DNA from: Sipunculus nudus
Lineage: Eukaryota; Annelida; Sipuncula; Golfingiida; Sipunculidae
Length of the DNA: 64,000 nucleotides
Assembly (NCBI GenBank): GCA_026874595.1
Contig: CM049306.1
Coordinates: forward strand, 6,464,019-6,528,018
Direction: 5' to 3'
Shown piece after piece: positions 6,801 through 54,180 of this stretch (within the stretch, counting starts at the first letter, position 1; the number at the start of each line of letters is the position of its first letter). The notes beneath the pieces are model-generated. The model had not been told where the DNA came from, searched no databases, and saw nothing but the letters and a program-made list of their open reading frames with translations. A program made the position numbers and the translations under genes.

Positions 6801-6940
6801 ACCTATACTAGGCTTTAGGACCTTTCTTACGAAGGCATGTTATATTATTTACTCTCGAAAACATATATATCGCAATCAACTAAAAAAAACTTGTATTGCA
6901 TGATATTTATAACTTTATATTTTTAATTCTGTATTTTCAG

Positions 6941-7771
6941 TGGGGCTTTCCGCCGATTATGTTCTTGGTATATCGCGTAGTGGCTGCTGTCTATATGGTT
7001 GTATGGTTGATTATAGCCATGGTGTGGCACACAGACCCCCTGGGCCGCCCATCGATCGTCTGGCTGACGTACTGGAGTTTCATAGTCTTATGCTGTCATC
7101 TAGTGTTCGCGGCAGTCATTCAGATTATTCATCTTGGAAATGTCGGGAAACTTTTGGCGTGCGCAGACATTCCATTGGAGACGGTGAAAGAGTCAGGAAA
7201 GTTAGAGAACAAGCTTCCCTGGTATATCAGGTTGGATTGGATCTTGTACACCGTCAGTTTGTGTGCTGCGCCCCTGGTCACTCTGGTTTACTTCACTACT
7301 ATTTTCCCGGTCTACACGCAATTGGCTGTACCCAAGATTGACGATTTCCATATCCATGGGGTAAATAGTATTGTGATGTTCATAGAAGTATCCATCTCAG
7401 CCATACCTACCAGAGTGTACCACTTTGTATACTTTATGGTATACGGTTTGTTATATTTAGTGTTCACCGTAGTTTACTGGGCCCTGGATCATAACAAGAT
7501 TATGTATTCAATGTTTTCTGACTGGAACAACCCAGGCCGATCTGCTGGAATGTCCATTCTTCTTCTGTTGGTGGTTTTACCCGTCATACATCTGCTGACG
7601 TTCCTCATCTACAAACTCCGTGTATTCTTCTGCAAGAATATCTGCTGTCGGGCAAATTCTAAAACAGACCACGCCATGACAAGCTCAAAACAAGCGCGGG
7701 CCGAAGAATTTTGGAAATCGGAGCGCAGCATTTCCCAAAGTCTGGATGATATGGAACTGAAAAATTACTGA
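6941..7771 (+). CDS. Rolling-stone-like multi-pass membrane protein, 3' terminal exon
   Basis: The open frame runs to a TGA at 7771 and encodes 276 residues. A pyrimidine-rich tract and TTTCAG end at 6940, so the true exon probably starts at 6941 and the upstream in-frame ATG (6896) is probably intronic. The protein begins WGFPPIMFLVYRVV and has about six hydrophobic spans, near residues 5-30, 42-68, 98-124, 138-155, 159-182 and 205-227, then a charged cytoplasmic-looking tail. The pattern, especially NSIVMFIEV and PTRVYHFVY, matches the Drosophila rolling stone (rost) family, implicated in myoblast fusion and widespread in invertebrates. The N-terminal exon(s) with the start codon are not seen. 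The exon is intact, unlike most coding sequence in the window. Family assignment is by recognition of the pattern, not by a search. Confidence 0.75.
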   Translation, partial: WGFPPIMFLVYRVVAAVYMVVWLIIAMVWHTDPLGRPSIVWLTYWSFIVLCCHLVFAAVIQIIHLGNVGKLLACADIPLETVKESGKLENKLPWYIRLDWILYTVSLCAAPLVTLVYFTTIFPVYTQLAVPKIDDFHIHGVNSIVMFIEVSISAIPTRVYHFVYFMVYGLLYLVFTVVYWALDHNKIMYSMFSDWNNPGRSAGMSILLLLVVLPVIHLLTFLIYKLRVFFCKNICCRANSKTDHAMTSSKQARAEEFWKSERSISQSLDDMELKNY

Positions 7772-21644: not shown

Positions 21645-21931
21645 AGGCCACCAACTCACTCGATATTGGGGGTTTAATTACTGAGACAGGGCGTGCTAGG
21701 CACCCCAGGCAGGGGGGTATGATTAATTGCCCTGGCTGTGGAAACGACGGTCCAGCCGGACCAAATATGTCAACAAACTTAACATGCTGTCTGGTCCGGA
21801 CAGGGGGCAGCTGATAAGCTGATGACCGCTTTAATTCAAACAGCAACGGTCATCAGCCTGGCAGAGGGGTGCGCGCACAGTCTGCAGATAGCGGCGGCCA
21901 AGCCAGTAGGCCTATAGCGGCAGCGAGCTTT
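21645..21931 (+). repeat. Ngaro-like repeat A1
   Basis: It begins AGGCCACCAACTCACTCG and ends at GCAGCGAGCTTT. It matches A2 with a handful of substitutions and a 7-bp difference near 21850. Confidence 0.9.
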
Positions 21932-22630
21932 GGCAAGTTGAACTGGATTTCCGCAGTTGTTACGGGCGGGCGAGTATTTCTTCGACGGATAATAACTGCA
22001 ATAAATCGGCTCAAAGAACAACACCACAGAATTAAACTAGGCGGCGAGCTAAAGAAAGATTTCATATGGTGGCGGCAATGTATGTTTGCATTTAATGGGA
22101 AATCCATGATGTTGCACACACAACCAGAATACGCGGTTTATACCGACTCATGCAACGAGGGGGCCGGGGCAGTGTTTGCATCAGATTGGTTTTATTGCAA
22201 ATGGGGTATCGATATGCCCCTTATCAGCGGCCTACACATTAACCAAAAGGAGACCCTGGCGGCGGTGCTAGCGGCGTTACGTTGGGCAAAATGTTGGGAG
22301 AATAAGAGGGTAGTCATCATATCCGACAATAAAACAACGGTTAGTAATATTAATAAAGGGATTGCGAAAGATAGTGTGGTTATGGGATATATGAGGGCAT
22401 TGTTCTGGCTCTCAACAATGTTCAATTTCCATATATATGCATGTTACGTGCCGGGGAAATTCAACATTCTCGCAGCCGTCATATCGAGATTGCATGAGCA
22501 TGGTAAATTTCAGGCGTTAGAGCAGCTCCTTACACCATACCATATACACCCGTTAACCAGCCACATGTCCTTACAGTCCGCATATCGTTTCAGTGCATCG
22601 GTCCCCGATCCTCCGTCAACTGGACCGTGA
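21929..22630 (+). pseudogene. RT connection and RNase H domain of YR retrotransposon
   Basis: The open frame reads FGKLNWISAVVTGGRVFLRR, the region after the RT thumb of DIRS-type elements. The RNase H follows: AVYTDSCNEGAG (first Asp) at about 22137, HINQKETLAAV (Glu), IISDNKTTV (second Asp) and AAVISRL near 22475, where ADAISR-like is usual, so the last Asp appears to be lost (GCAGCC for Ala-Ala). The frame stays open through 22630 and overlaps the recombinase start. The product would degrade RNA in RNA-DNA hybrids during element replication. The frame continues upstream into A1, an artefact of the internal deletion. Confidence 0.8.
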
Positions 22631-23030
22631 AGTGGAGAGCGTCGCCACCCAAGCCTTCGCAGAGGCAACAAAACGGACCTACTCCACACACCTTAAATCG
22701 TATAGAAACTTCTGCCAATCTGCTCGCATAAATATGGTGCCAATTTCGCAGCAGGACCTAGCCTGCTATATTGTTTATCTCTCCCATAAGTTGAAGTATA
22801 GCAGCATAAAACAATATCTAAATGTAGTTAGGTTGTTGCATGTTATAGCCGGAGTGAACCCTTCATCGCGAAGGTTCTTATGAGAGGTGTACGCCGCTCA
22901 ATAAGGGACATACGGTCCCACAAATTGCCGATCACGATCGAGATCCTTCAAGATATTGTAGCTGCTTATTTATTCTGGGAGGAAATTGGGCTTGGGCAAC
23001 ATGCACTCGCACAATTTAAAGAGATAAAAT
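22593..23030 (+). pseudogene. Tyrosine recombinase, N-terminal half
   Basis: The 96-aa open frame (22593-22883) contains VATQAFAEATKRTYSTHLKS, then FCQSARI, LACYIVYLSHKL and IKQYLNVVRLLH, the SAM-like core-binding domain of DIRS/Ngaro/Crypton recombinases. After 22883 another frame continues with MRGVRRSIRDIRSHKLPITI to about 23030. One frameshift separates them. The domain then stops at an insertion. Confidence 0.8.
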
Positions 23031-23459
23031 AACACTTTTTTTTCTAGAATAAAATTTAGAGCCTAAACCTTCAAATTATCAGGACTGCATATTAATATCT
23101 GAACTTATATATGAAACAGAAAGATACTTACCAGGCTGGATAAAAGGATTGCTCTTTGGTAGTGGGTGGCTCTTCACCTGGGTAGCCGACACTGTCGTAA
23201 AACCAACCCCAAGGTGAAAAAGAAGCCATATACCCTCTGCCTACCACAGAGGGCAGGCATAGGGGTCCACTGCTCGATGATCCAAGCGAGAGAGAATCGC
23301 CAGGGCAAGGGGGTTTCATTCCAGAGGGACAGAGGGTGAAGTCCTTAGCTGCCTGTGATTGGCTCTGGGGCATCTCTATATTGACTGTCAATCAGTGTTC
23401 ATGCCCCACCACTGGCCAGGTCAAAGGGCAAGAATGTTACAATATGTTCAAAACGATCG
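23031..23459 (-). other. Insertion splitting the recombinase gene
   Basis: About 430 bp of foreign sequence separates the recombinase halves. On the minus strand it has an 87-aa open frame (23128-23391) that ends FYPAW directly before a consensus GTAAGT donor. The frame includes SPWGWFYDSVGYPG. It may be a SINE-like element or an exonised repeat. No clean target duplication found, and I do not recognise the family. Confidence 0.45.
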
Positions 23460-24055
23460 ACCTAACCTCTCCATCTGAAATGCACCTTTGCATTTTTCTC
23501 ATTTCTTAGGAAATCTAACTTTTTACCAAACAATGAATCGTGTATCCCGACTTCATGTGTACGTAGGAAAGACATCAGTTTCTCTCTACAGGGAGCCACC
23601 GTCAAAGTCCAAAAGACTAAAACAGTACAGTATAACCAAAGGGTACTAGCGATACCGATTCCGCGCATTAAGAACTCCCCCCTTTGTCCTGCACAGGGCC
23701 TCATGCTAGTTTTTAGACTCACCCCGGCACCACTGGAGTCCCCAGTTTTCCAGTATTCCTCAGGCACGCACAGGGAAATATTGACCTATAATAAATTCTT
23801 AACAAAGTTAAAACGAACGCTATCACGGATAGGGGTAGACCCCTCCAGATACGCAGGGCACAGTTTTAGACGCGGGGAGCGACCCTAGCGCTCAAGGCAG
23901 ACATACCGCCAGCGCTCATCAGACGTCACGGAGACTGGCGGAGCGAGGCTTATCAGCGGTATCTCGATCCCTCCTACAACGAACGGTGCGAGGTCGCACG
24001 GGCCTTAGCCGCAGAAGTGACCAAAAAAAACACTAAGTACTATATAGATAGATGT
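23460..24055 (+). pseudogene. Tyrosine recombinase catalytic half
   Basis: In shifting frames the strand reads FLRKSNF (about 23505, first catalytic Arg), then a beta-strand region, LAIPIPRI, CPAQGLMLVF, and YAGHSFRRG (23850, H-x-x-R). After a frameshift it continues LIRRHGDWRSEAYQRYLDPS (about 23915-23975) with the His and nucleophile Tyr. All five expected active-site positions can be located, but at least two frame breaks remain. The enzyme would integrate a circular DNA copy of the element. Confidence 0.8.
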
Positions 24056-27106: not shown

Positions 27107-27171
27107 TCCCGATACAACATAGTGTTCCAGCTGACAAAAATATAAGCATGAATATATAAACAATGGGATAA

Positions 27172-27394
27172 GGGGCTAAAACACTCCTTGGTCTGAGACT
27201 GCATGTATGGTCTGAGAGTGCATGTTGGTCTGGGAGTGCACGCAATGCATGACTGGACAGAGGCTGGGCAGATTATGGTGATAAGGACCAGACAGGGGCT
27301 GGGCCGAGTATGGTGATTAGTGGTGGAGGACTGTTTGCACACCAATTAACTGACTTAATCTGATTAGAGTACTATTTAAATGGAATGTGTGAAT
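27172..27394 (+). repeat. Internal inverted repeat, left copy
   Basis: It begins GGGGCTAAAACACT and contains GGTCTGAGAGTGCATG and CCAATTAACTGACTTAATC. The reverse complement is at 37451-37675, and a third copy in direct orientation, extending further right, is at 53746-54180. Confidence 0.9.
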
Positions 27395-28695
27395 GTAATC
27401 AGGTTACAAAATGTCAGAACAAGACACAGTGTACATTAAATATATTATACACATTTTATTATATACATCGGACAAATCTTTTATAAATAACACAGGCACA
27501 AAACACCAAAGAGAAAAGTTGAACAAAATAAACCGATTAATTTCTTAATTGCTTGGCTCTGATAATCATAAGGCATTACTGTAGCACAGTTACACACACA
27601 AATAATTAGTTATTCAAATGTTCTTAATGTCATCTGTCAGCTCTTTTTGCATATATTTAAATATAAAACATGAGAGGTCATAAGGCTTTAACAGATGATG
27701 ATATGCTATCACCAGTAAGCAAAAACGAAAGAAGCACCCTGTGTTTCATTTATACATAAAAAATATGAGAAGCTTTTGTCAGATAAAATTCCCTTTCTGA
27801 ACCAAGTATAGCATGCACCAATTAAAAATGGAGCTTGGCTTATGGATGTAAAAAATTAATAGAAATATATAATTATTGTTCCTCTTATTCTAAACCTAAT
27901 GTAAAAATGCCTAATGCACAACTAGCCTATGAATTATGTGACATATATACAAAAGTACAGGAAAGCACTAATTTAAGGGCCCCAATCAACTATTGGAGCT
28001 TTCGTAAAATCAGGCCAGACTAATGGATGTGCAAATAGCATTTTGCCACAAGAACTTTCTACCTCCGCGTATATACAACCTAATGCTTAAGGTTAGATGT
28101 TTTTCCTGTACTACAACATTGCTGTGTTTACAAACATGTTGTTGATAAACAAGTTTACACATCCTTCATGAAGGCCTTATAAGAACTTTTCACAACCAAA
28201 TTACTCTTAGATCATTAATATATACACTGAGGAAGCCAGAAATCACAAAAATTCTTTTTCAAAAGGTAGGTGATTGGGCACCTTTAAAACTGGAGTCTAG
28301 ATCATGATTGATATGATTATGATTGATAAAAACAATATGAATTTCTTTCTATCTTATGAACTTAATGTAAAAATCCTAAAGCCATAACTTATCAATGAAA
28401 TATGTAACATATATAACAGTGTAACGTGTATACAAAAATGTACACAAAATGTAACATAAATGCAGATGTCAATTGTCAAAAAAGTCATTATTCTCCATTT
28501 AAAGACAATTTTTTCGGGACCATGTTAAACACCAATTAAAACTTCTAGATGATGATTGATATAAATATAGATAAAAATATGAACTTAACATTCCTCCATA
28601 TAAATTTAATGTAAAAATGCCTTATCAGTGAAATATGTAACATCACATATACACATGTATACATAGATTGATAGACAAAAAGTCTTTATTCTGCA
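27395..28695. other. Transposon 3' flank, no gene
   Basis: AT-rich sequence downstream of the transposase stop. About 27395-27670 matches 53890-54170, so this is element-specific sequence seen in a second, fragmentary copy. A 62-aa frame at 27835 has no motif. Confidence 0.6.
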
Positions 28696-30476
28696 TTAAA
28701 TACAGCTTTGGCAAATCCATGCACTCGCAGTTCTTGGTCCCCTGGTAAATCCTGCACAGGCAAAGTGAAACCATTCAAGGCAAACATCACAAGAAATGCT
28801 TGGTCTGTGTTCTTGAATGTTCTCTTTACACTGTGGACAAACCCACACTGCTGTCCTCCTTTTCACTGCCAACAAATGTTCCAGTGCTACCCAGGCATCA
28901 TCTGACATGAATGACCTAATATCTGAAATATCAATTTCATTGTCGATTAATTGGTTTGGAATAGCATCTGGAATTGATTCAATTTGCTCTTCTCTTATGG
29001 TGTCTCCATTCATTACTTGTGTAACAAGGGGGGGGATCCAGAAGCCAAGATAAAATTTTCTTTTGTTTTTCCACCTGAGAGAGTGTTCTAAACGATTTTA
29101 GTTTTCTGCGTCTCTTGTTGGTTCTCTGATTATCAGGTGCATGTGCTGGTCTTGTTTTCCTAGCAGAACACCCCCGGCCTGATTGAATTTTTCTAGCTGC
29201 ATTTTCATCAAGACATTCCATAGCTTGTCGGTTTAGCAACCACTGGTCATACTCCTGATTTTCCTGAAGCTTGTCATGTGACAAGAGATCATAATGGCCA
29301 TTGAGTGAGAAAAAAAGGTTAACTGTCTGACTCACAGGACCATCCATTGGTATAAATGTCCTGTGGTGCCTGTCCGGACCATCACACCACACAATAATTT
29401 TCAGTCTACACACATGAGCTAGGGCAGTCACAGCTCTGTCATCAACCGGATGACCCAGACTTCCAATTTCTCGAAGCTCCTGTGGAGTTAAATCCAGAAT
29501 ATGTTGATTTCGTACAGCCCATTCATGGGTTTGTTGTCTTAATGCTATGTGGACGTTTTGCCTTTGTCCCAATCCTTTAGCCACAGCTCGGAAAAAACAG
29601 TTTCCATCACCGATTATTTTATACCTGTACAGTATGTCTGTTCCGTAAACTCCTGAATCATTAGAAGCAGAACTGGTTGTACCAGGATGGGGATGTGAAA
29701 CAGAGGTTGTGTGGCAAGCTTGACCTGATGATTTCTCCGAGCATGATGCTGTGGCAGTTGTTCCCTGCTGCTTGATTATGACCTTTTTTACTTGTGCAGC
29801 CTTTATAATTGGACCCACAGGTGCAGTTGATACAGAGTTCACAAGCTGACTGCAATTGTTCAGCATTGTGTTAGCAACCTGTTTTTGAACTCTTTTCACT
29901 GTTTCAGTGTTGATTTTTTCATTTTTTAAGTGAGTCAGTAATTTGAATGTGAAGACATGGTTTGACGGCTGCATTTGATTAAAAAAGTATATGTCCCTAG
30001 CTTTATCACGATGCAGTTGCTCTGCAGCTTGTGTGTTACACATTCCTCGCAATTCCAGAACAGAACTTGCCCTCCTCAAAATTTCCTCATGAACCTTTGA
30101 ATTATTTTCATGGAACCAGTCAAAAAGGAAATAGTGATCAGAACTTCCAGTGATTGGGTGTTCAGAGTCTGTCCTGGTCAATGCAGGCCCTTTCATCAGA
30201 CAGGAAAGGCAAACTAATTTGAAGGCGCTTCTGTTCTGCTGCTTGGATGTGTGCATCTGTGCTCTCAAGAAGGCGTCCTTCATGAGGCATGAACATTCCT
30301 GGTACTGTCTTGTTCCCATGCTTTGCAATAGTATGCGCAATGTCACCAATATTGATAGTTGGTATATGTTTCAGCGAACGCAATATGTCCACATAATCGC
30401 GTGGTGACTCTGCTCGAAGGAGGAACTTAACTGCATAAGTTACATTATGCACACACGTGGAAGAGAGCCATCCTCC
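28696..30476 (-). CDS. Transposase last exon: KDZ core end, OTU protease, PHD finger
   Basis: After TTTTCAG the exon encodes GGWLSSTC, then YAVKFLLRAESPRDYVD and INIGDIAHTIAKHG (second catalytic Asp region) and LPFLSDE. A one-base shift near 30175 leads to HPITGSSDHYFLFDWFHENN and NTQAAEQLH. A linker rich in K, S and T follows. The OTU domain (about 29282-29629) has GDGNCFFRA with the catalytic Asp and Cys, and SLNGHYDLL with the His, so it looks complete. OTU proteins remove ubiquitin. After a shift at a C8 run (29028-29036), a PHD finger (28697-28845) ends the protein with CPQC, CDVC, HFAC and CQSC, a full C4HC3 set expected to bind histone tails. Stop at 28696. Confidence 0.8.
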
Positions 30477-30749
30477 TGAAAATAAGAGAAATTTGACATT
30501 TAGTTTTAAGTTCATTATGAAGCCTAAAATATTTTTTACAGATTTTGTCTGTGTAGTATATTATTCTTCATATTAGTCTCCAACTATATGCTTTATTATT
30601 CCCTGTCAGTTCCATAAAAAATAAAATCAATGGACATGACTATTAAACATTAAAATTTAACATTTAACAGTAAGCAATTCATGTCGTAGCAGTGTTTTTA
30701 GAATATTGCTGTTAACTTACATAACACATAAAGATTTAATGGCAAATAC

Positions 30750-30891
30750 CTGAGTGACTGTGCAAAGCAGCATAGGCATGATTGAAGCTCGCTTTCGACA
30801 TTGAATGTTGTCGTAGCCGCACCAGAATATCAAGTCGACTGCCTCGACTGTTTACCTTCAGGATTCTGCAGAGCCGACGTAGTGTGTCAAC
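30750..30891 (-). CDS. Transposase exon 9, SAP-like segment
   Basis: The exon encodes VDTLRRLCRILKVNSRGSR, then LDILVRLRQHSMSKASF. The helix-loop-helix pattern resembles a SAP DNA-binding motif. Bounded by TATGTAG and GTATTTGCC. Confidence 0.65.
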
Positions 30892-31227
30892 CTACATAAA
30901 TTGTATGTCAGAAACAGAATTATATAAAATTAATTTATAAAAATGTCCTAACCAAATATTTACATGCACTGGCAACAAATTTACCAAATGCTCTAAATGA
31001 ATTAAAAAAAATATACTTATTTTTATGACATGAAGAACTTAACAATAAAATATAATAAAATGATTTAATTAGCACACCATTACCACATCAATGCAATGTA
31101 TATGTTACAGGCAAACTGTATAATCAGGAATTGCATGAAATGACAATTACACATGGTAAGTGAACATATAGCTGACCAGGTTCCTTTTCATTTTGAATAT
31201 CTTCAAAATATATGATTGAATAATTAC

Positions 31228-31406
31228 CTTTTCATCATTGAGTAGACGATCAATCAGCTCCTCAGGAACAGCCTCATGGTCCTCTGGTTCCTCCTGGTGT
31301 ACCTTGCAGTACTCTGTGTTGTAAAGCTGGTTAGACTTTCTGGTTTTTCGGCCAATATATGGTGCCCAATGATGGTATGAAGGTGGAACCTTGAATGGAT
31401 TTTCAC
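31228..31406 (-). CDS. Transposase exon 8
   Basis: The exon encodes ENPFKVPPSYHHWAPYIG to VPEELIDRLLNDEK, between CCATCAG and GTAATTATT. Confidence 0.7.
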
Positions 31407-31554
31407 CTGATGGGAAATGTATATCATTTTGTTAAATACAAGGTGTTTAATACATATTTTCTTCATAATATAATAATGTACTTCTAAGTAGTACTTCTAA
31501 GTATCATTTAAACTTTACTTTATACCCCCCCCCCCGAATCAAAATGAAACCCAC

Positions 31555-31664
31555 CTCGCACAATGCCTCTTGCAATAATTTCCCTCTCAATGTCTGACCA
31601 AAACTGTTCTGCATCCACCTGTGGCTGAGGAGTCTCTGGTAAGGAAACACTGCTTGCTTCATAT
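31555..31664 (-). CDS. Transposase exon 7
   Basis: The exon encodes YEASSVSLPETPQPQ, then EQFWSDIEREIIARGIV, between acceptor TTACAG and donor GTGGGT. Confidence 0.7.
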
Positions 31665-31946
31665 CTGTAAGTGATTTCACAACTTATATCCAAATCTGTT
31701 TATACATTAATTACAATACATGCATAAATAGAGACTGTTTATGTGTTATGTGTACAAAAAGGTGCTGTTTATGTGAAATATCCAATCCAAGAAAGTGCTT
31801 TGTAAGGGAGCAGCAACATAATTACTCTGTGACTAGATATGTAACATGAGCCTGCTTAAATATCTCTGCCCTTAAAGGGTCACTGCCAGGATTGAAAGTA
31901 AATTTCCCTGTGTTAATAATGTAATTTATACTGTTTTCATACTTAC

Positions 31947-32140
31947 TTAAATACTGCTTTCTTGGTTAAGTCATGGACCAAGACCTTTGGATGGTGGCCA
32001 CATTTCACACAAAAATAGTCATGAGAATGGTCAAACAATGCTTCAAATGCAAGGTAAGCATTCTCTACTTCAGTGTGGTTAATATTGATGCCAAGCTTGT
32101 ATTCCATTCTTCCTATTACACGACTGATTGCTGTGTGATT
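31947..32140 (-). CDS. Transposase exon 6, first catalytic Asp region
   Basis: The exon encodes NHTAISRVIGRMEYKLGI, then YFCVKCGHHPKVLVHDLTKK. The Asp in VLVHD after a CxxCG-x2-P motif corresponds to the first catalytic Asp of KDZ transposases. Flanks: CTTTCCAG and GTAAGTATG. Confidence 0.75.
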
Positions 32141-32377
32141 CTGGAAAGAAAAAAGTTTTTTTTTATGTTTATTTGTTAAATATAAATGGTGATATTATTC
32201 ACTGTATTTTATTTACCAATTTATATTTTATAAACCTATATAATAATAATATGTATTTATTGGATTTATATAAGGGAACAGAACACTAATTAATCTATTT
32301 TGGTGTAAGTGTATACATGTACTTGAAGACATCAAAACAATGGCAGATGTTATAAAGGTTAAAAAATATATAATTAC

Positions 32378-32517
32378 CACCAAGGCTGCTCTGATATCCA
32401 AGAGTACAGGGTGTGAAACTAGTAGATGGTCGTTGAAATTGAATATACCGTGGCAGCACTCTTGGTAGCGATACACCATGTGGCATGTACAACAAACCTT
32501 ATAGTAGGTCTTGTAAC
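32378..32517 (-). CDS. Transposase exon 5, Cys-rich/KDZ start
   Basis: After CATTCAG the exon encodes YYKVCCTCHMVYRYQECC, then GIFNFNDHLLVSHPVLLDIR, ending before GTAATTAT. The Cys/His cluster lies immediately N-terminal to the catalytic core. Confidence 0.7.
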
Positions 32518-32686
32518 CTGAATGTAGATAAAAATGTGTTTAAGATTTGTTGGATTCCTGAAGCATCTGTCATCTGTCATGCAAGTATTATGCACTGTAC
32601 AAGTCGGTTAAAGTACTGGTATCATAAAGTTTGCCCTATATTCTTTTAATTTAAAATTTGTGTCAATTGACAGTATTTTTGCTAAC

Positions 32687-32992
32687 CTTGTAGGGGTTCA
32701 GAATCCATGGTGAGTATCACTGCCCTCCGATACACAAGTCTTGGCTCAGAGAGGGGAACATCACAGTGGTTGCAAATAGATTCAAGTGGTATCAGTTGTT
32801 TGGGTACTGCTTCCTGGTTAAACTTCCAGGAGACATGTCGAGGAATTGTCTTCTCCTTCTGAATGTATTCTACCATCTTGACCAAGCTGTCTCCTTTTGG
32901 GGGATATATGTCTGCTGTTGCCATGTCAAACGTGTCTTCATTCATTTGTTCATCACCATCAGCATCATGTAATGTTTCACGAATGATGTTCC
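32687..32992 (-). CDS. Transposase exon 4, acidic linker and Cys-rich part
   Basis: The exon starts GNIIRETLHDADGDEQMNE after TTCCAG and ends SICNHCDVPLSEPRLVYRR to EPLQ before GTTAGC. C..C followed by downstream cysteines in exon 5 matches the C-x-C clusters that precede KDZ cores. Confidence 0.65.
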
Positions 32993-33200
32993 CTGGAATT
33001 GTGTGAAATAGAATCACATCAAATTTAAAATATCAATAACACATTGACTTTTCTGAAAATTATCATAATTAGCACCTATAATAATATTTACTTTAGCTTA
33101 ACATTTTATTTTATATATATTATCAACTTGAATATATTAAATCATATATATTATCAACTTGAATACATTAAATCATAATTATTTGAATATCAAATTATAC

Positions 33201-33594
33201 CTTCTTTGAATAGTTTCCACTTGACCAATGCACGATGTACACACCCTCTCTTTCTACATTTGCATGTGATGGCTGAGGTTTTGGTGTCCAAAGTAACAAT
33301 GGTCCTGTTTGCTTTGCTCCACCAGCTGACATTGTCAGTGAACACACTGTAGAATTGGAATCTTGTACTTGTGAACCTATCATCTGGCAGATGCACAAGT
33401 AGTGGAACATTTTCTTCTTCTGCTCGTTGATGAATGGCAACACAATCATTTTGTCTCCCTGTTGTCATGAAGCCAACATCTGTCATTGCATGTAATGAAG
33501 TCAGCTGTAAGTCATAACTTGGTGCAGGAACACTGAATTGGACAGCCTGGAGATGAGGGCACAGGTAACTTGCATTGCCGCTTCTCCAATGAAC
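33201..33594 (-). CDS. Transposase exon 3, SWIM-type finger
   Basis: The exon is bounded by TGTCAG and GAAG followed by GTATAA. It contains RSGNASYLCPHLQAVQ at the start, and TSAITCKCRKRGCVHRALVK at the end, a CXCX4CXH SWIM-like cluster. SWIM fingers occur in KDZ and MULE transposases and are thought to bind DNA or protein. Confidence 0.75.
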
Positions 33595-33850
33595 CTGACA
33601 TGTAAGATTTAAAAACATATAAGTAGAGATGGTCAAAGTAATAATAAAGACACTATTACCAGGTATTCTTTACAAAGTTTGAAAACATAAAGTGTATGTA
33701 ACACAACTTGTCTTTTCTTTAAAGGACCAACTTACTTGGTTCTCCTGATACACTTACACATTTATTTTAATTTAGTTTCAATATTACAAATGCTGTGAGA
33801 TAGGTTTTTACAAGCACTGATAAAAAACAATAACGGTATAATTAGCTCAC

Positions 33851-34514
33851 CTGAGCGAGGTCCATGCAGTCTCTGCTATCACACTGAGTTTTTGCATCTG
33901 GGCCATATGGTGGATGTATCACATGCAAGGGATGTCTTGCCCCTTTTTGACTGATTGCCACAATATATATACCCTGAGTTGGATCTATACAACATGCATA
34001 AAGGTGGTGTGTAACAAAAGCCATTTGAGATGCCTGTGCGTTTTCTGTGACTGGTTGGTGTTTCCTTCTTATGTGCTGTCGTAAGGATGATTTGTGATAC
34101 ATTTTCTGACAATGAGGACATGGTACTGAGTTACTTGGGGGAGCATGAGGATTCTCTACTGTCATTTCTGTCTGTTCCTGACATGATGCTGAGTTACTTG
34201 GGGGAGCATCAGGATTTTCCACTGAAGACTCTGTATGTTCTGATGGACCATCATATATGTGTTGCCAGGCTGAACCTCATCTTCGTTTAATTCTGAATGT
34301 AGCACAGGTGCCTGGTCAGTTTCCTGATTTGTTACAGCATTAGACATACAGTCAAAGGCTTCTAACTCTGAACTGCTACATGGTTCAATGTGCTGAATAA
34401 CAACTGATTTGTTCTTACCAGTCCAGTTGCAAAAGGGGCAATGGAAATGGCTTCGTGAACTCTCACTGTTTTCATACTTGTTGCAAGCTTTAGCACAGGC
34501 AGTTATTATAAATC
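33851..34514 (-). CDS. Transposase exon 2, two zinc fingers
   Basis: After acceptor TTTCAG the frame reads GFIITACAKACNKYENS, then FHCPFCNWTGKNKS with a following H and C. A shift of one base near 34250 leads into VPCPHCQKMYHKSSLRQHIR, a C2H2 finger, preceded by two near-identical repeats (VENPDAPPSNS, VENPHAPPSNS). The exon ends CAG followed by GTGAGC. The fingers are the probable DNA-binding part. Confidence 0.7.
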
Positions 34515-34992
34515 CTGAAACAATCAATTAAATTTTCATGAACATATAAATTTATTGTATAGGAAAGCTGGCTCTGAAATCACAGCTTTTTTTAAGAATT
34601 TGAGGTGGGTTAGATGACTCTTCATAATAGACTATTGTAAAAACTTTTGTAGGCTTCAGGTTTAATTACTGCCGAATTAAATGGCATTTTTGTGATAAGA
34701 AGGGTCAGCAAAGGCTAGAAAATATTCAGTGCTGGTCTTTGAGACTTGTATATAAAAATAAAAATAAATATATCTCAATTGATAATATGCTGAATAAATC
34801 TAACACAGTAAATTTGACTCTAGACCGGTGACATTGGTATTTGTATTTATATTAATTACTAATCAAAGCATATTGTGACAATAATAATGATAATGGCAGA
34901 GGCATATATATCACAATGGTACCATACTATTATTATCTTACTTGGAATTGATATAATATATGAATTTTCTATAAGAAGTGAATTAATCTTAC

Positions 34993-35232
34993 CATGTGTA
35001 CTGATGAACCCTCTTGTACCAGTAAAGTGTTTCCTGATGTGTTCCTTCATTTTGGAAGATAATTTGGTTTTACCCGTGAAGGTGGGCAGATAGGACAATG
35101 CACTAGACTTTTCTTCCCTGTACATCCTTCAGGACAACCGATACAGGGAACAAGATGAAAATTGTCCACCAGCTCTGATAGCAGTGTTATGCATGATGAA
35201 TGCATACTAGTACAACTGGTGACCATACTCAT
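34993..35232 (-). CDS. Transposase exon 1 (tentative), C2H2-like finger
   Basis: ATG at 35232 opens MSMVTSCTSMHSS. CPIC at about 35098 and, one frame away, KMKEHIRKHF would together make a C2H2 finger, so a frameshift near 35090 is likely. The exon ends CATG followed by donor GTAAGATT. The true start could lie further upstream. Confidence 0.5.
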
Positions 35233-36370
35233 GTTAAGAGGGGTTTAAATATAGATGACCGGAGTTTGTTTTCAACATCAAATAATCAGGTTTCATACAT
35301 CAAACATATACATCAAAGGTGCTTATTTGAATGATCCTTCCTGGGTGCTGTATAAACAGTTCCATTTAGGAAATTACACATGTTTGGACCCTACTCAATA
35401 TCAACTCAATTAATTATTCCCAACATCTTGAACTCCCTGTGAGCTGACCACAGGCCTGCAGGTGGTACAGTGGCCAGAAGCTGTGACTCACAGCAGTAGG
35501 CTGGACATGGGGTTGTGTGTATAATTGACTGGAGTTCCTATCACTTAGATTTATCTGTAAATGACCATGGAAAATAAGAATTAAATGTTACCAGATTAAT
35601 AACATAGGCAGCCACCGAAGCCACACTTAGTAGCAGTGAGAATGATTAAACTCCCAGATTAAGATCACAGGACAAGTAGATCAAATTGGATACATGTGCA
35701 AAGAACTTCTTGAATGTAAAGACAGACAGTGTTTATATCATGCCTAATTTGTAACTAATTTTTTTTTACATATTAATTGCTGTCATTTTGATGAGTGACT
35801 GTAATATGGGAAAATATCAATTATATCTTTCAAACATCATGACTTCTGAAGATTAATTGCCCAACACATGTAGAGCTCTTATCACTGCATCCTGAACCAC
35901 TAGTTGCAAAAGTATTGCAAACACACAACATATCAAGGAAATAAGATACAGTAAAAGCATAAATCAAGGTAAAAAATAATAGTCCACATAATGAAGTTAT
36001 ATTTATAAACAGTCGATATCCAGACCATTTATGTGCACAATCAGACCAAATGTCTCTTTATCTTTCTCTCTCTCATTATCTCTGCTAACAACCTACAGTA
36101 AACACAAAGCTGTGGTATGTTCTGAAAATAGATTGGCCTTAATTGTGCACAAACTGCCCTATTACTGCGCATAACTGCGTGATCAATATGTGGGTAGGAA
36201 TCTTTAGGTAGATATTATAAAAAAAATTAATAAAATATTAGCATTTAAATATTTATAACATATATTATATCATTTCATAATAAAATTCATTTTATCATAT
36301 AATATATGCAAACTTTATATGTGGCCGACATAGCCCAGGTAATCTCCTTTTCTCTCTTCCATTCCAATCC
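35233..36370. other. Transposon 5' flank of transposase gene, no gene
   Basis: AT-rich sequence that probably contains the transposase promoter and possible upstream exons. No clear motif. Confidence 0.5.
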
Positions 36371-36379
36371 ATTCTGTAT

Positions 36380-37210
36380 CTCTCCACTATACTGTTATGG
36401 TACTTCAATATCGGAGGTTAAGAGAAAATTACAAGAAGCTGTAAACTTTGTCTGTGAATGGTTTGCTGCTAATTGATTGACGATTAATGCAGTTAAAGCT
36501 AATGTAATGTTATTAGGCGGTAAAACTCGCGAAAATTGTCATACACTGAGCATAATGGCTAACAGTGTTCTTCTACAACAACTTTATGAAACAAAACTAT
36601 TAGGTTTATCTATTGATACCAGTCTATCCTGTTACCTCATGACCAAGTACTCTCAAATAAATTATCACCTGAACTTGCATTATTAAACCGTCTCTCTAAA
36701 TACTTATCTAGGGATACATTATATGTGGTATATAACACGATTATACAGCCTCATATAGACTATGCCTAAAGTGTATGGGGATATAGATTAACAAAGCTGG
36801 ATAAAGGGAGGATACAAAAAATGTAAAACTGGTCAGCCCGTGTCATAATTGGATTTCGATGTTCAAAGTGCAATGTTAATTCAAAGGTTGAATTAGACGT
36901 CCGTATCAAAACAATATGAATACTTTACAGCCCTTCTTATGCATAAATTATTACATCAAACAACGCATATAGGCATGCAAGAATCATTGTCATTTGTTAA
37001 AAACTCTCATGATAACTCAAAAAGATCTGCAACCAATAAATTAATTACCCTTTCTAAGCTGAGAAGGGAATATTATTGATCAAGTTTATTTATGCTGGTC
37101 CATTGTTATGGAATACATTACCATATGACCTAAGAACAGTAAACTCCTTATCCACTTTTAAGCGTAGCTCAAATCCTTCTTTTGAAGCTCTTAATTTCAT
37201 ACTCTATAGT
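36380..37210 (+). pseudogene. Nested 5'-truncated LINE reverse-transcriptase C-terminal remnant
   Basis: Across frames: LQEAVNFVCEWFAAN, INAVKANVMLLGG, then NRLSKYLSRDTLYVVYNTII followed by QPHIDYA and WSARVIIGF, and at the end AGPLLWNTLPYDLRTVNS. These are the thumb and C-terminal motifs of Jockey/CR1/RTE-type LINE ORF2. It lies inside the 12.5-kb transposon, so it inserted there afterwards. Many stops. Confidence 0.7.
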
Positions 37211-37367
37211 ATTTTATATTTGATCTGTTATTGTTTATTGTAACCAAATTAATGTACCTTCATACACACAGATTTGCAGTGAATGTGATGTTTTATGCTA
37301 TAATTTTTTAATTTTATTTTTCATAATATGAACAATTTTATTAGTATCATATGTTTGTCTGATTGAA

Positions 37368-37376
<9 letters not shown>

Positions 37377-37410
<34 letters not shown>
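37377..37410. repeat. (TG)n(TA)n microsatellite
   Basis: TGTGTG followed by a TA run. Confidence 0.9.
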
Positions 37411-37412
<2 letters not shown>

Positions 37413-37450
37413 AAATAATAATAAAAAATAATTTCCCTCTCCATCTCTCT

Positions 37451-37675
37451 CATTCACACTTTCCATTTACATAGCACTCTAATCAGATTAAGTCAGTTAA
37501 TTGGTGTGTAAACAGTCCTCCACCACTAATCACCATACTCGGCCCAACCCCTGCCTGGTCCTTATCACCATAATCTGACCAGCCTCTGTCCTGTCATGCA
37601 TTGCGTGCACTCCCAGACCAACATGCACTCTCAGACCATCCGTGCAGTCCCAGACCAAACCAGTGTTTTAGCCCC
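37451..37675 (-). repeat. Internal inverted repeat, right copy
   Basis: Reverse complement of 27172-27394, ending AGTGTTTTAGCCCC. It lies 0.7 kb from the right end of the transposon; its partner is 1.3 kb from the left end. 37676-38289 holds no gene I recognise. Confidence 0.9.
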
Positions 37676-38289
37676 TGTTGAACAATGGAGCCGATTTTGA
37701 TACTATCATGATACAATCATAATCTTTGAATAGTTATACTTATTATGTTAGTGAATAGTGCATATAAAATAAGTCTCAATTATAAATAGGTATATGACCA
37801 TATAAATGATAATAAGGTTAAGTAGGTTCAATCGTTTGGACCCACAAGCAAAATGTTTTGCCTGCTCATGTATTCAAAATGGACGGTCCAGCTTAGTCAC
37901 ACACGTGTAGAGGCTGACCTGAAAAGACTTGCATGCTGAATGACTTAATTCACTCATACATGCAAGAGATTCTGATACATCAGAAATATATGGTCTTAGA
38001 CCTAAGCGTTTGACCAGTTAACATTACATTTGTGACACAAAGTACTGTAGTATAGCTAATATTTACCTGATAATATGGTCAAAATATGTTATTGCGTTTC
38101 CTCTGCTGATAGTGATAGCTGGCTGCAAAATGGCACCGATTCAAATTCCGCGCTCCTGTGTATCACATCTGTAACTTGAGCGGAGTCAGAACTGATAAAT
38201 ATCCAGCGGGTCTGCCTGGCGCAGCAACCTCAGCAGGGTGCCAGGCCTGGTCAAGCGCAGTGACACTTGCTCATCCAGCAATTCCGTGC

Positions 38290-38401: not shown

Positions 38402-41400
38402 AACAACAAAAATCTAAAAATGTTTACATGGAAAAAAAATGTTCCCTTTTAAGGCAAAACGTTTAGACTATATTTTGGTTAGTGAATCAATCGTTGATAA
38501 ATGTATCAATGTGTTTATTAAGGATTATACAAAATCTGATCATAGTATGGTGGGAATTACTTTAAAAACTGAAAGCTATACTATTGCACCAGGTTATTTG
38601 AAACTAAACGTCTCGCTATATTATAAACCACGAGTGTCTTGCGGTGATAGACGAAACGGAAAGGAATTATAAAAACGTTGGTCATCAGGTTCTATGGGAC
38701 CTTTGTAAATTAAGTAATAAGCATATGATCATTGAGTATAGCAAAGAAATAAATTATGCGTAAATCCAGAGGAATATATCCTAGAACGAGAATCGATAAC
38801 GCTTCATAAAAAAATTGCAACCAACCCGGCAGATGAAAATTTATTAAGGACTTATGAAAATAAAATTATGCGGTTAGAGATGATTCAGGTTGTTAAGGCA
38901 AGAGGGGCTTTGGTTCGCTCAAGACGACAGTGGATTGAGGAAGGAGAGAAAAATACTTCCGTCTTTCTTTCTCTTGAAAAACAAAGGGCTAGTTTGAAAG
39001 TTATTAACAAACTTTAAAATGATAATGAAGATATAGCAAACTCGTTAAAAGGTGTTTTAAATGAAATTTATAATTATTTCAGAAAACTTTATACAAAGAG
39101 TGAAATATGTAATGACATAAATTCTTTTATTTGAAATACTAAAATACCCATACTCTCACACGATGAACAAAATATCCTTGAAGGAAATTTTACAGAAGAT
39201 GAGTGTTGGCAAGCAGTTAAAAATATGAGAAATAACACAAGTCCTGGACTAGATGGTCTTAGACCAGAGTTTTATAAAACATTTTGGTTCAGAATAAAGC
39301 ATCTGGTAGTAAATTTGTTAAATTAATCTTTGTTAAAGGGGAAATTGTCATGTTCCCAAAGAAAGGGTGACATTAAAATTATCTCAAAAGGTGATGATTT
39401 AGCTAAGGATGAAATTAAGAATTATCGGCCTATAATGTTTACCTGTTGTGATTATAAAATTGGAGCAGGGGTCTTGGCGAGCAGGCTACACAAAGTTGTT
39501 TCAGTGTTGATCGATTGTGATAAAACTGCTTATATAAAAGGCAGAGGGGTGTTCCAAAATATTAGACAGATACTAGATATTATGTGGTACACAAAAGAAC
39601 AAAAAATGGATGCTGCTATTTTATCAGTGGATTATTCTAAGGCTTTTGATTCGATTTCATTACAGTTGATATAGTACATTTGTTAAAAGTATATAATTTT
39701 TGGTCCTCAATTTAGAAAATTAGTCACTGTGTTTAAAACTGAACGTCAATGTTGTGCGTCGGATGCGGGTTTGCACACTCGGTGCATGGTTTACTATATG
39801 GAGCGCGGAATACGTCAAGGTTGTCCACTCAGTGCAGTTCTATTTATTCTCGCCTGTGAAATTATAGCGTGTAAAGTCCGTCAAGCTGATTCTATTGAAG
39901 GTATCAAACTTCCTGATTCAAATATACAAATAAAAATAAGTCAGTATGCAGATGCTATTCACTTTTTTGTAAGTGACTGTGCTTCACTTAATAGTTGTAT
40001 GGATATTTTAGAGAACTTTAAAAATGTCCCAGGTTTACGAATAAATCAATCAAAAACAAAAGTGATGCATGGGTATTGGTGCTTGGTCAGAAATGCTTAA
40101 TATTGGAAGTTTTAGGTGTGAAAAAGAAATGAAAATACTGGGCATAATATTATCTTATGATAAAAAGTTGATGAATGATAATTTTAATCAAAGGTTATGT
40201 AAGGCTCAGACAGTTGTGAAGCATTGGGAACGTCGTAGTTTGTCCTTGAGTGGAAAGGTATTCTTTGTTAAAAGTTTAATTATGTCACAGTTTATGCATT
40301 TATTTATGAATATATATGCACCAGAGCATATAGTGAGTAAGCTGAATCATCTCATTTTTAAATTTATTTGGAAGAATAATGGTAAACGTATAGAAAAAGT
40401 TAAAAGGTAAGTATAGATACAGGAAGTAAAAATGGTGGAATGAACATGGTGGAAGTAAACAGTGTGAATAAAGCAGCCATCGGTGCTTGGATAAAGCGCT
40501 AAGCAAATGCACAAACTATGGAGAAAATACCAAAATGGGCAATTATACCTTTATGGCTACTGAATAAAACTGGTTCAAATTTACTTATATTTAAATAAAA
40601 TTGCAGATATAATGAGTTGAATAATAAATGTTTAGAAATACTGAATAAATTCCCCACTTTTTATAAGCAAATGATAAAAACAGTGCTTGAAGTGAAAGAA
40701 CTTAAAACTCAAGTAGGTCTGAAGGATGTTGTCTGGAATAATAGTTGTATGAAATATAAAGGAAAAATGATGTATAATGATGATTGGATAAAACAAGGTG
40801 TTTTACACGTTGGTCAAAATGTGCATCTTTTAAAACTCTATTCTTTCAAGGAAATTAAAACAATGATTAAGATACACGGAGGGATATACTTTCAATATAT
40901 GGCACTGCATAATGCGACGAAGAATGTAACGGTGGTCGAGAATACTGATACGAATATATATTTGTTTTTGAACCACGAGACATTGGGATATTAATAGTTA
41001 AAAAGTTATATACTGTACCGATTTGTCAAACTACGTTGGAAGCAAAGTTTCCTTCTGTGGAATTTGACTGGGAAATGGTATGGACCAAACATTATCTTGC
41101 TTTAATGGAAGAAAAAGTATTTTCATTGATGTGGAAGATTGTACACAATATATACCCAACAGGGATCCGGCTGTTTAAAATGGGTATCTGTAATAATGAT
41201 TTGTGTAAATTTTGTCAAGTTCGAGATACATTAGAACATTTCTCTATCTCTTGTAAATCAGTAGATTGTTTATGGAGAAGAATAGAGAAACAATTTAATG
41301 TAACATTAGCTCAAGAGAATATTTTGTTTGGTATAAATGTGCCAGGCAAGGTGCAGAAGTTTATCTGTTTAGCTAAAGTCTGCATAAGTAGATTTAAATA

Positions 41401-41640
41401 TTGCACATTGCAAATTTAGAACTTTTGTATGAACAGGAATGTTGTTATAGAAATATGTGACTATTGTAAAATATCTATATTTAATAAAAAAAAAAGTGCA
41501 ATCCAGCAATTGTTATTGTTTTCACTGTATCTCCTTAATTGTAATGCTGTTTCCACTCCAAAATACAAAACTATCCAAGAAAAAGTAATTCAAGGTGTAA
41601 TCCAGAAGATGCCATGTTGTGTAAATGTAGCTTTTTAAGA
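38402..41640 (+). pseudogene. Tx1/L1-like LINE, 3' part: endonuclease end, RT, C-terminal CCHC
   Basis: This continues the LINE of 25497-25897. The endonuclease end reads FTWKKN, KRLDYILVSESI and SDHSMVGI (about 38560). RT motifs follow: NTSPGLDGLRPEFYKTFW (about 39236), NYRPIMF, AFDSISLQLI, RQGCPLSAVLF (about 39812), and SQYADAIHFF, where the catalytic YADD reads YADA (39945-39956). Thumb: LSLSGKVFFVKSLI (about 40240). A C-terminal CKFCQVRDTLEHFSISC (about 41208) gives the L1-type CCHC motif. Open stretches lie at 39330-39674, 39729-40100, 40069-40410, 40617-40994 and 41036-41419, separated by stops and shifts. It is inactive. Confidence 0.85.
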
Positions 41641-51501: not shown

Positions 51502-53745
51502 TAATGCTGCTTTGCCACTGCATGAGGATTTTGCCCATGAGAGCCAGTCTGATGTTACAATGTCGACATTCCAGTGTATCCCAGACTCCCAGTTCAAAGA
51601 CTTCATCATCTTGATGACACTACTACTCCATTCCCCTGAGGCAAAGCGTGCATGCCGGTCTCTGCTGGACCTGTTCTAGTGATGCCATATACTTGCAAAG
51701 ATAAGGATCCAATACAGCTCTTGAATACTCAAGCACCAAATACACTAGAGCAAAATATGCCTGCTCTCTTAGTTCCTTTGGACAGTGTTTCAAGTTACAC
51801 CAGAGAAATCTGACCTTGGTATTTGCTTAAGCCGTGATGGTTGATATATGAGAAGACCAAGATACATCACTGGAGGTACTTAGCTTTGTCCACTGAGTTG
51901 GTTTATGGCAATATTGTAAATGGGATGCGATGAGCAGTTGATTCTCATGATCTCAGGTTTACTAGGGTTAAATTGCATTCCCAGTCTCAGGCCCCACTCC
52001 TCTCAAGTGCCAGTAGATCTTGTTGCAAGATCTGCTGGTCTGTTGCTGTGTTAATGACTCTATAGAGCAGACAGTCAGCTAGCTGTGAGTGTGAATAATT
52101 GCACCTTGGACTGTACATTGGAAGGTAAGTCATTTATATGAAGCAAGAATAGTAGGGGGTCTGGACAGTGCCCTGAAGTACCCAAAAAGTGACTGGACCT
52201 GCAGTAGATCTGCCACCCTGTACAACCACACTCTGATATCTGATATAGTTTGTCATGTGGCTCAGTAACAAATGCCTTTTGAAATCTAATATTACAATGT
52301 CAGTTTGGTCCTTATTATCATAATTACTTACAAAGCCTTAAGATGGTTGTTAGGGGTTGTGTCTCACAAGACTGTAGGGCTCGTAATCAATTTTGCACAA
52401 TTCAGTAATATCATATACTGATCAAGATGCTTCAATATGTGACTACAAATTATGTGTTCCATAACCTTACAACTAATGGATGTGAGGGACACTGGTCTGT
52501 AATTTTCTGGTAGATGTTTATTACCTTTTTAGAATATCGGCGATACATATGCCATTTTCCATTCTGATAGAAGTTCACCTGTTTGCAGGGACTGGTTAAA
52601 TAATGTAGTAAGGCAAAGTAAAAGCTCAACTGCAAGTTCTTTCAAAATGCGTGCTGATATATTATCCAGGCCAGACGCTTTCCTAACTCTAAAATTAAGT
52701 AAGAGTTTTTGTAACTCCTGACTGCATAATAATAAGGTTACTAATGGAAGGATATGGGTACCCTTTAAGATGGGGTACATCCTCCCCATTTTCTGGAGTA
52801 AAAACAGATTGAAATTGATCTGAAAGTATTTCTGCTTAGGTGGTGCTGTTTACTATGTAATACTCCTTAAGTGGGGTTACTCCTAAATTTTCCTGTCTCT
52901 GTGACTTAACATATCTCCAGAAGGCCTTATAGAGTCCTTGTTGGCCATACTTTCTTTCAAAATATTATTTATATTATCATTATGGGCTTTCCTCAAAATC
53001 TTACATGTCTTGTTTTAACTGGTTAAAACGCTCCCAGTTTTTACTTATAAGTTTTCCTGGGCCAAATTGTAAAGTAGCTGTTTCTTTCATGTCGTCCTAT
53101 GTATGGCAACATTAACCCAAGGTAAGTGGTGTCTATTATTGGTGTTACACGAAGGAATGTTTATCAGTTGATTTCTGTATGTTTTCCTAAATAATAGTCC
53201 AAAATTTCATTTACAGTTCTACTTGTGTTCTCGATTAAGTACTGTTCTGTGAAGGCAATATTGTCCTCCTAAACAGATTTCCAATCAGCAATTTGAGTAA
53301 ACATAAGTTTTAGGAAGTGGCTAAATAGCCGGCAGGGTGCCAGCAGTTAAGTCAACAGGCTAAACAGCCGGCAGGGGAAATTGACTTTGCTGGCAGTCTA
53401 GCCCACTGGCTTAACTGCTGGCAAATGAACTTAACATTGTATGTGCTCTATTACAGTGTGATACTGTGTACTTTCCATAATTATTTTGACAATGAGCTGA
53501 CAATATAGTGCTGACTTCCCAAGATTTACCTGGTTTTTCTAGGGATATTGGGGTCTAAGATCCATATCTGCAACAATAATTTCATGATCTGGTATCCCCG
53601 GTATAGTGGTAATATAACCTAAAAGATCTGGTTTATTCACACAAAACAAATCCAAAATTCTGTTAAATCATGTCGAAAGTTGTTGCATCTGATTCAAATG
53701 ATGATTTCCCAATATTAATGATAGTTTTTCACTCCTTTGGTTTGA
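51502..53745 (-). pseudogene. CR1/L2-like LINE ORF2 with endonuclease and RT
   Basis: On the minus strand, from 53745 down: endonuclease end LDLFCVNKPDLLGYITTIPG, then PDHEIIVADMDLRPQ (about 53590). After a small insertion comes the linker (EILDYYLGKH, NLGVTPLKEYYIVN, LSDQFQSVFTPENG). RT domain 1 reads KASGLDNISARILKELAVEL at about 52660, then FNQSLQTGELLSEWKMAYVS. RT thumb remnants QQRPARFASGEWSSS and MMKSLNWES lie near 51590-51650. Central RT motifs including the catalytic box are degraded. The ORF continues at 44081 beyond the MULE. Confidence 0.8.
53317..53500. repeat. Small insertion with TGCCAGCAGTTAAG palindrome
   Basis: TGCCAGCAGTTAAG (53338-53351) is mirrored by CTTAACTGCTGGCA (53410-53423), and GGCTAAATAGCCGGCAGG is repeated as GGCTAAACAGCCGGCAGG. 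It interrupts the LINE between endonuclease and RT. Confidence 0.6.
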
Positions 53746-54180
53746 AAGTGCATGTATGGTCTGAGAGTGCACATAATGGATGATCAGGCAGGGGCTGGCC
53801 TGGTAAGGGAGATTAAGTGGTGGATGACTGTGTACACACCAATTAACTGACTTAATTTAATTAGGGTACTATGTAAATAAAAATTGTGTGAATGTAATGA
53901 GGTTACAATTTGTGTGTAAAAGACACAGTATACATTAAATATTTTCATTTACATTTTATTGTATACATGATATGAATTTTCTATAAATTATACAAGCACA
54001 ATATACCTCAGAGATGAGTTGAACAAAATATACAGATAATTTTTCTATGTGCCTGGCTCTGCCAGCCATAAGGCATTGTTGTAGCTGGACCCAGTTACAC
54101 TTGAAAATATTTATTTACTCAAATGTTCTTATAGTCAGCTGTCAGCTCTGTTTGCATAGATGTTTTTAATTTCTTTCTCC
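53746..54180 (+). repeat. Fragment related to the KDZ transposon (matches 27190-27670)
   Basis: GGTCTGAGAGTGCA, CACCAATTAACTGACTTAAT, GGTTACAA and TCTGTTTGCAT align in order with the 3' flank of the transposase gene. This is evidence of a second, fragmentary family member. Confidence 0.8.

Follow-up and report, generated by a model that had tools for sequence, protein, structure and literature searches.

In this study, we analyzed a stretch of 64,000 nucleotides from the annelid Sipunculus nudus (GenBank assembly GCA_026874595.1, contig CM049306.1, positions 6,464,019 to 6,528,018; hereafter the window), which carries a transposon whose predicted gene joins zinc fingers, a CxC cluster, a DDE-type (RNase H-like) transposase core, an OTU cysteine protease domain, and a terminal PHD finger. 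Judged from the sequence, this fusion inside a transposon is real, because a sister copy holds core, OTU, and PHD in a single open reading frame (ORF), a diverged relative holds OTU and PHD in one ORF, and a tally of copies across the genome recovers the same arrangement. The element in the window is probably a dead copy of a KDZ-like (Kyakuja-Dileera-Zisupton) cut-and-paste transposon bearing a CxC4 domain, from a family that encodes a core-OTU-PHD protein with the roles proposed below. This family of large KDZ-like cut-and-paste transposons is old in this genome.

The genome searched comprised 1.43 Gb in 153 contigs, 17 of which are probably chromosomes (C16 and C17 measure 61–64 Mb; C18, C19, C20, C22, C30, and C153 measure 52–92 kb); the window lies on contig C1. 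The alignment with a sister copy on contig C10 (L009) begins exactly at 27167 and finishes exactly at 37680, and L009 is bordered at the same two element ends by its own 8-bp target site duplication (TSD), GAGTATAG. In the window, another 8-bp TSD, AACAATGG, stands directly outside these two positions, and therefore the element was delimited as 27167–37680 (Table 1). The terminal inverted repeats (TIRs) were identical at 93.8% over 226 columns in a self-comparison of the window (27171–27395 vs. 37451–37676). A first-pass annotation of this DNA had described a bounded transposon; the TIRs and the 8-bp TSD bear this out, but the bounds that it gave (28696–35232) enclose the coding part only.

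The predicted gene consists of ten minus-strand exons separated by nine introns, all GT-AG, and in the window copy exons 3–10 can be read in a single open frame as far as a break in exon 10. Comparison with the sister copies reveals five frame breaks: two in exon 1, one in exon 2, and two in exon 10 (one in the core and one at a homopolymer run lying between the OTU and PHD domains). To judge by its letters, the window copy is dead, and the “one spliced gene” of the first-pass annotation stands as a chain of ten spliceable exons but not as an intact frame in this copy. The start codon placed at 35232 is doubtful: since L009, L011, and the diverged L016 keep the frame with an ATG at the place of 35194, the latter is probably the true start. 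The length of the homopolymer run (28990–29110) varies among the window copy, L009, L010, and L011 and sets whether OTU and PHD share a frame; this variation may reflect decay, assembly error, or something that is used.

Four copies on four contigs are 97–100% identical over the covered part of the searched 1 kb. L009 lacks 30471–34809, L010 lacks 29978–30251 and is interrupted near 34593, and L011 lacks 32231–33543 as well as everything to the left of 28906, PHD included. In L009, the C-terminal half of the core, the OTU domain, and the PHD finger form one uninterrupted ORF of 608 amino acids. L011 has core and OTU in one ORF of 555 amino acids, in frame up to its truncation just before PHD. 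In the more distant L016 (contig C12; approximately 48% identity over residues 932–1384 of the chained protein), a single ORF of 437 amino acids spans linker, OTU, and PHD. Together with the family tally, the ORFs of L009 and L016 confirm the core-OTU-PHD fusion that had been proposed.

For this tally, genome matches were merged into copies (core, 32 matches to 18 copies; OTU, 33 to 30; PHD, 35 to 34), and all genome match counts are lower bounds. On the same strand and within 3 kb downstream, OTU accompanied 11/18 cores, PHD 10/18, and both together 9/18, so that absence of the two domains from other copies, which would have spoken against the fusion, was not what we found at the family level. 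When the distance was extended to 8 kb, these values were 11/18, 12/18, and 10/18, and neither domain was detected in 5/18. As a control, OTU was found within 3 kb upstream of 2/18 cores and on the opposite strand of 0/18, because of which the core-OTU adjacency is more than chance. A PHD finger followed within 3 kb downstream of 12/30 OTU copies, and the OTU-PHD part was kept in copies only about 35–48% identical. Several core matches carried internal stops. Two OTU-PHD copies on C17 had no core match, one with core remnants (L063) and one without (L062).

Other OTU-like sequences were seen in the same searches. Around the OTU copy L059 on C14, neither core nor PHD gave a match in the vicinity, and this copy is perhaps an OTU gene of host type. 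Clusters of OTU-like frames (29–35% identical) at C16:56.47–56.88 Mb and C12:23.38–23.52 Mb have neither a core match nor, within 3 kb, a PHD match, and may represent a different mobile element or a family of host genes. When viral contigs were scanned with the L009 ORF, two stretches fit the pattern and none was confirmed.

The terminal C4HC3 PHD finger was identified as annotated, with a Pfam match over the cut-off in the window exon (E = 4.7e−7, 30.2 bits vs. 24) and likewise in L009 and L016. Its nearest relative of solved structure was TAF3 (2k16, E = 3.7e−9), and W-x-C-P-x-C and C-x2-C-x2-W-[YF]-H are common to both. The two tryptophans of these motifs form the methyl-lysine cage in TAF3. 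Histone H3 trimethylated at lysine 4 (H3K4me3) is read by TAF3 through its PHD finger (PMC12565824), and because the nearest solved relative is such a reader, the proposed chromatin role of the PHD finger gains weight. For the OTU domain, the motifs GDGNC (catalytic Cys) and NGHYD (His) named in the first reading are present, but the Pfam match of the window exon lies just under the cut-off (E = 2.4e−4, 22.1 bits vs. 23.3). The best solved matches, obtained by phmmer with the L009 letters, were OTUD1 (4bop, E = 1.4e−5) and OTUD3 (4bou, E = 0.0055), both of which are ubiquitin proteases. A single-sequence AlphaFold model of the window OTU reached a mean pLDDT (predicted local distance difference test) of 33.9 and was unusable for a fold search.

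Selective constraint was estimated between L009 and L016 as the raw ratio of nonsynonymous to synonymous differences (pN/pS) with bootstrap intervals. The ratio was 0.31 [0.23–0.41] in the OTU domain (141 codons), 0.28 [0.17–0.40] in the post-OTU block (75 codons), and 0.40 [0.27–0.60] in the PHD finger (47 codons), while the linkers gave 0.56 [0.44–0.70] (88 codons) and 0.70 [0.51–0.97] (48 codons). OTU and the block that follows it are clearly constrained, the PHD finger less clearly so. Since pS is 0.70–0.85 and thus near saturation, these ratios probably understate the true constraint. L016, L036, and L045 retain the Cys and His motifs, as do all four near-identical copies.

Upstream of these domains, the chained window protein matched CxC4 (PF18717) over the cut-off (E = 1.3e−9, 38.4 bits vs. 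26.9). The candidate catalytic residues were kept in 5/5 (first Asp), 7/9 (second Asp), and 11/13 (Glu) of the sequences with a residue at that place. The SWIM and SAP assignments made at first sight are visible as motifs (CxCxnCxH for SWIM), but neither had a Pfam match in the chained protein; the GSRxxIL of exon 9 also occurs in the relatives C10b and C8 and not in C16b. No integrase family, such as would be expected of a Gypsy-type integrase (the Ginger1 core), was listed for the chained protein.

Taken as a working protein, the fusion could act as follows. The N-terminal zinc fingers would probably bind the element ends, and the DDE-type core would excise and reinsert the element. The OTU domain may serve as a deubiquitinase whose substrates would be either the transposase itself or proteins present where the DNA is cut or the element inserts, and the TAF3-like PHD finger, in which both Trp positions are present, may tether the complex to H3K4me3 chromatin, a tethering by which integration would favor open, promoter-like chromatin. 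More tentatively, and with rather low confidence, we suggest that the two C-terminal domains cooperate, i.e., that PHD brings the complex to H3K4me3 nucleosomes, where the adjacent OTU strips ubiquitin from a histone, a repair factor, or the transposase.

Several observations weigh against the proposed reading. With regard to the class of the element, the Pfam KDZ profile (PF18758) gave no match to the chained protein at E-values up to 10, a range in which most matches weaker than about 0.1 are removed by the HMMER filters, and its 12 matches in the genome (nine over the cut-off) all lie outside this locus. Profile-profile comparison of the core by hhalign was not significant with the L051 group (P = 0.038, probability 1.4%) or with the L053 group, which includes the below-cut-off L056 (P = 0.091, probability 0.6%), and CxC4 stays under the cut-off in L022, the sole stitched relative scanned (E = 0.075). 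Because of the unmatched PF18758 and the non-significant comparison we write KDZ-like and not KDZ, a name that the sequence data support in part, through CxC4, the 8-bp TSD, and the long TIRs. The same two results would suit a DDE transposon that has CxC4 in common with KDZ but belongs to a different superfamily, be it a known or a new one. We judge this unlikely in view of CxC4 exceeding its curated cut-off, the 8-bp TSD and long TIRs matching KDZ1, and the hhalign alignments falling on the expected motifs (CxxCG..PKxLxxD and NTxxAEQ) of the KDZ-positive L051 and L053. Transposase frames over the Pfam KDZ cut-off occur in the same genome (L051, L053–L055), one of them open over 574 amino acids.

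With regard to the reading frame, the window copy has OTU and PHD out of frame with each other, and so does L010, at the same homopolymer run. L009 alone of the four near-identical copies has an uninterrupted OTU-PHD frame (L011 being without PHD), all four are damaged, and no intact copy was present among the copies read. In the tally, OTU was undetected within 3 kb downstream of 7/18 cores and PHD of 8/18. The frame shifts, along with the further break inside the window core, are what a separate or chance-adjacent OTU-PHD gene, wrongly chained to the transposase, would produce. This is very improbable and already contradicted by the ORFs of L009 and L016 and by the order of domains, which is constant across diverged copies and here lies entirely within the TIRs. 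A domesticated host gene of transposon origin might likewise have many exons and domains familiar from proteins of chromatin and of the ubiquitin system; the TIRs, the TSDs at two sites, the four almost identical copies on as many contigs, and the broken frame leave hardly any room for it.

With regard to function, the Pfam OTU match was under the cut-off in all five queries listing it, the pN/pS interval of PHD overlaps those of both linkers, GDGNS (Ser for the catalytic Cys) was found in a C9 copy (L024/L030/L046) and in L015, and residues beside the catalytic Cys are changed in L023 and L039. The substitutions at or beside this Cys point to a probable loss of OTU enzyme activity in some members of the family. 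In one of the diverged copies with GDGNS (L046:2324–3094; C9:6464700–6465131) the OTU frame is open. Retention of the domain with Ser in some copies would agree with OTU being a processing protease for self- or host-protein cleavage, acting on a ubiquitin-like modifier, or binding only, and with PHD being a dimerization or docking finger. Proteolytic OTU roles were considered by the Helentron authors (PMC4067079), and according to PMC9741609 transposon OTU domains are untested for activity. Against this set of roles, to which we attach a low probability, stand the Cys and His motifs kept in the copies and relatives listed above and the two best solved matches, which are ubiquitin proteases.

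In comparison with known systems, the element resembles in build the KDZ transposons (Cryptococcus KDZ1–3, Zisupton/Dileera), which are approximately 9–11 kb long with TIRs of 139–241 bp, an 8-bp TSD, and a CxC cluster accompanying the transposase (PMC12810828, PMC12730594). The mobile KDZ1 of Cryptococcus has about 11 kb, 241-bp TIRs, and an 8-bp TSD, KDZ2 and KDZ3 have TSDs of 4–8 bp (PMC12810828), and Zisupton gives 8-bp TSDs (PMC12730594). In the hhalign comparison, not significant as a whole, the core motifs also align with KDZ-positive sequences found in this genome. Unlike KDZ, the present element has no PF18758 match, carries CxC4 instead of CxC1, and ends in OTU and PHD, two words that are both absent from PMC12730594. 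Ginger1 shares the DDE transposase and, in some families, a C-terminal OTU (Ulp1 in others), and Ginger1-9_HM carries Ulp1 together with PHD, but its core is Gypsy-integrase-like, its tabulated elements have 2.6–7.1 kb where a length is given, and no row of the table combines OTU with PHD (PMC2836005). Helentrons and Helitrons resemble the element in bearing an OTU-type cysteine protease (OTU and/or VTD), whereas they have a Rep-helicase in place of the DDE core and, in the accessible descriptions, no PHD (PMC4067079, PMC9741609); the Helentron OTU is described as an additional ORF (PMC4067079).

At the level of single domains, the PHD finger shares W-x-C-P-x-C and W-[YF]-H with TAF3 (2k16, 5wxg, 5c13), but TAF3 is not a transposase, and where it has a Met a little ahead of the third Cys, the present finger has Ser. 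The OTU domain has its two best solved matches in OTUD1 and OTUD3 (4bop, 4bou), but the match is confined to the part around the Cys (45/160 residues for OTUD1).

Ubiquitin- and SUMO-protease domains are known on unrelated transposons, i.e., Ginger1, Mutator, and Helentron/Helitron (PMC2836005, PMC9741609). Ulp1 or OTU on transposons may activate DNA-repair factors (as suggested in PMC2836005), and helitron deubiquitinases might prevent the degradation of proteins needed for transposition (PMC9741609). Precedents exist in Ginger1, whose DDE transposases end in OTU, in Ulp1, or, in one family, in Ulp1 plus PHD, and in Helentrons, which carry OTU. No report of OTU and PHD on a KDZ-like transposase was found in the literature searched, which did not reach the founding KDZ papers, so an earlier mention is possible. 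A KDZ-like family with OTU and a TAF3-like PHD finger kept over long divergence constitutes a further case of a transposon-borne ubiquitin protease, and the role of such protease domains in transposition becomes testable, as one protein predicts both H3K4me3 binding and deubiquitination.

Table 1. Coordinates of the transposon and of its predicted gene in the window
Feature	Position	Strand	Remarks
Whole transposon	27167..37680 (10,514 bp)		Gene on minus strand; ends set by exact L009 alignment, TIRs, and TSD
Left TSD AACAATGG, 8 bp	27159..27166	+	
Right TSD AACAATGG, 8 bp	37681..37688	+	
Left TIR	27167..27395	+	Self-comparison
Right TIR	37451..37680	-	Self-comparison
Stretch without counterpart in L009, L011	35883..37156 (1,274 bp)	.	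Remnant resembling a long interspersed nuclear element (LINE), by eye, spans its right border
Exon 1	34993..35232	-	Two frame breaks; rich in Cys, with a C2H2-like finger by eye; conserved ATG probably 35194
Exon 2	33851..34514	-	C2H2-like fingers (zf-C2H2, zf-Di19 under cut-off); one frame break
Exon 3	33201..33594	-	SWIM-like CxCx5CxH at 33235-33264
Exon 4	32687..32992	-	CxC4 (Pfam PF18717) begins
Exon 5	32378..32517	-	CxC4, middle part
Exon 6	31947..32140	-	CxC4 ends; CxxCG..PKxLxxD motif; first catalytic Asp candidate, 31970-31972
Exon 7	31555..31664	-	
Exon 8	31228..31406	-	
Exon 9	30750..30891	-	SAP-like insert, by motif
Exon 10	28696..30475	-	Two frame breaks; encodes the C-terminal half of the core, then linker, OTU, the conserved block, and PHD up to the stop
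Candidate catalytic Asp 2 (NIGDIAH)	30342..30344	-	
Candidate catalytic Glu (NTQAAEQLH)	30020..30022	-	
OTU cysteine protease domain	29225..29647	-	Catalytic residues: Cys (29597-29599) and His (29294-29296)
Conserved block between OTU and PHD (KKILSWLLD...DAWVALEHLL...)	28852..29083	-	
C4HC3 PHD finger, TAF3-like	28702..28851	-	

Inside the transposon, a LINE-like reverse-transcriptase 3' remnant was recognized by eye at 35883–37300, part of which is missing in L009 and L011; a short ORF there (36477–36683) had no Pfam match. The stretch 35883–37156 was considered as a nested insertion, but because its junction has no TSD and the remnant spans its right border, a deletion common to L009 and L011 is likelier than an insertion in the window copy. 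In exon 2, a short tandem duplication (34117–34240; 61 bp, 82%) produces a repeated NPxAPPSNS segment.

Parts of the element were also found elsewhere. A fragment of the same window (53730–54158), approximately 79–90% identical to the left end (part of the TIR and 27286–27653), appears to be a relic of a related element. Bases 22–74 of the TIR, approximately, have many close-set matches at C4:55072584–55073613 and C3:1744500–1744667, where this part of the TIR seems to occur as a short tandem array.

The remainder of the window contains a Rolling-stone-type gene (6884–7768) and, at 21818–23888, an RNase H-like ORF (E = 0.004, under the cut-off) followed by an ORF with an end that by eye resembles a tyrosine recombinase (no Pfam match), perhaps together a DIRS-type retrotransposon. 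Remnants of non-LTR (long terminal repeat) retrotransposons lie at 39687–41419, with matches to RVT_1 (6.9e−13) and zf-RVT (3.2e−8).

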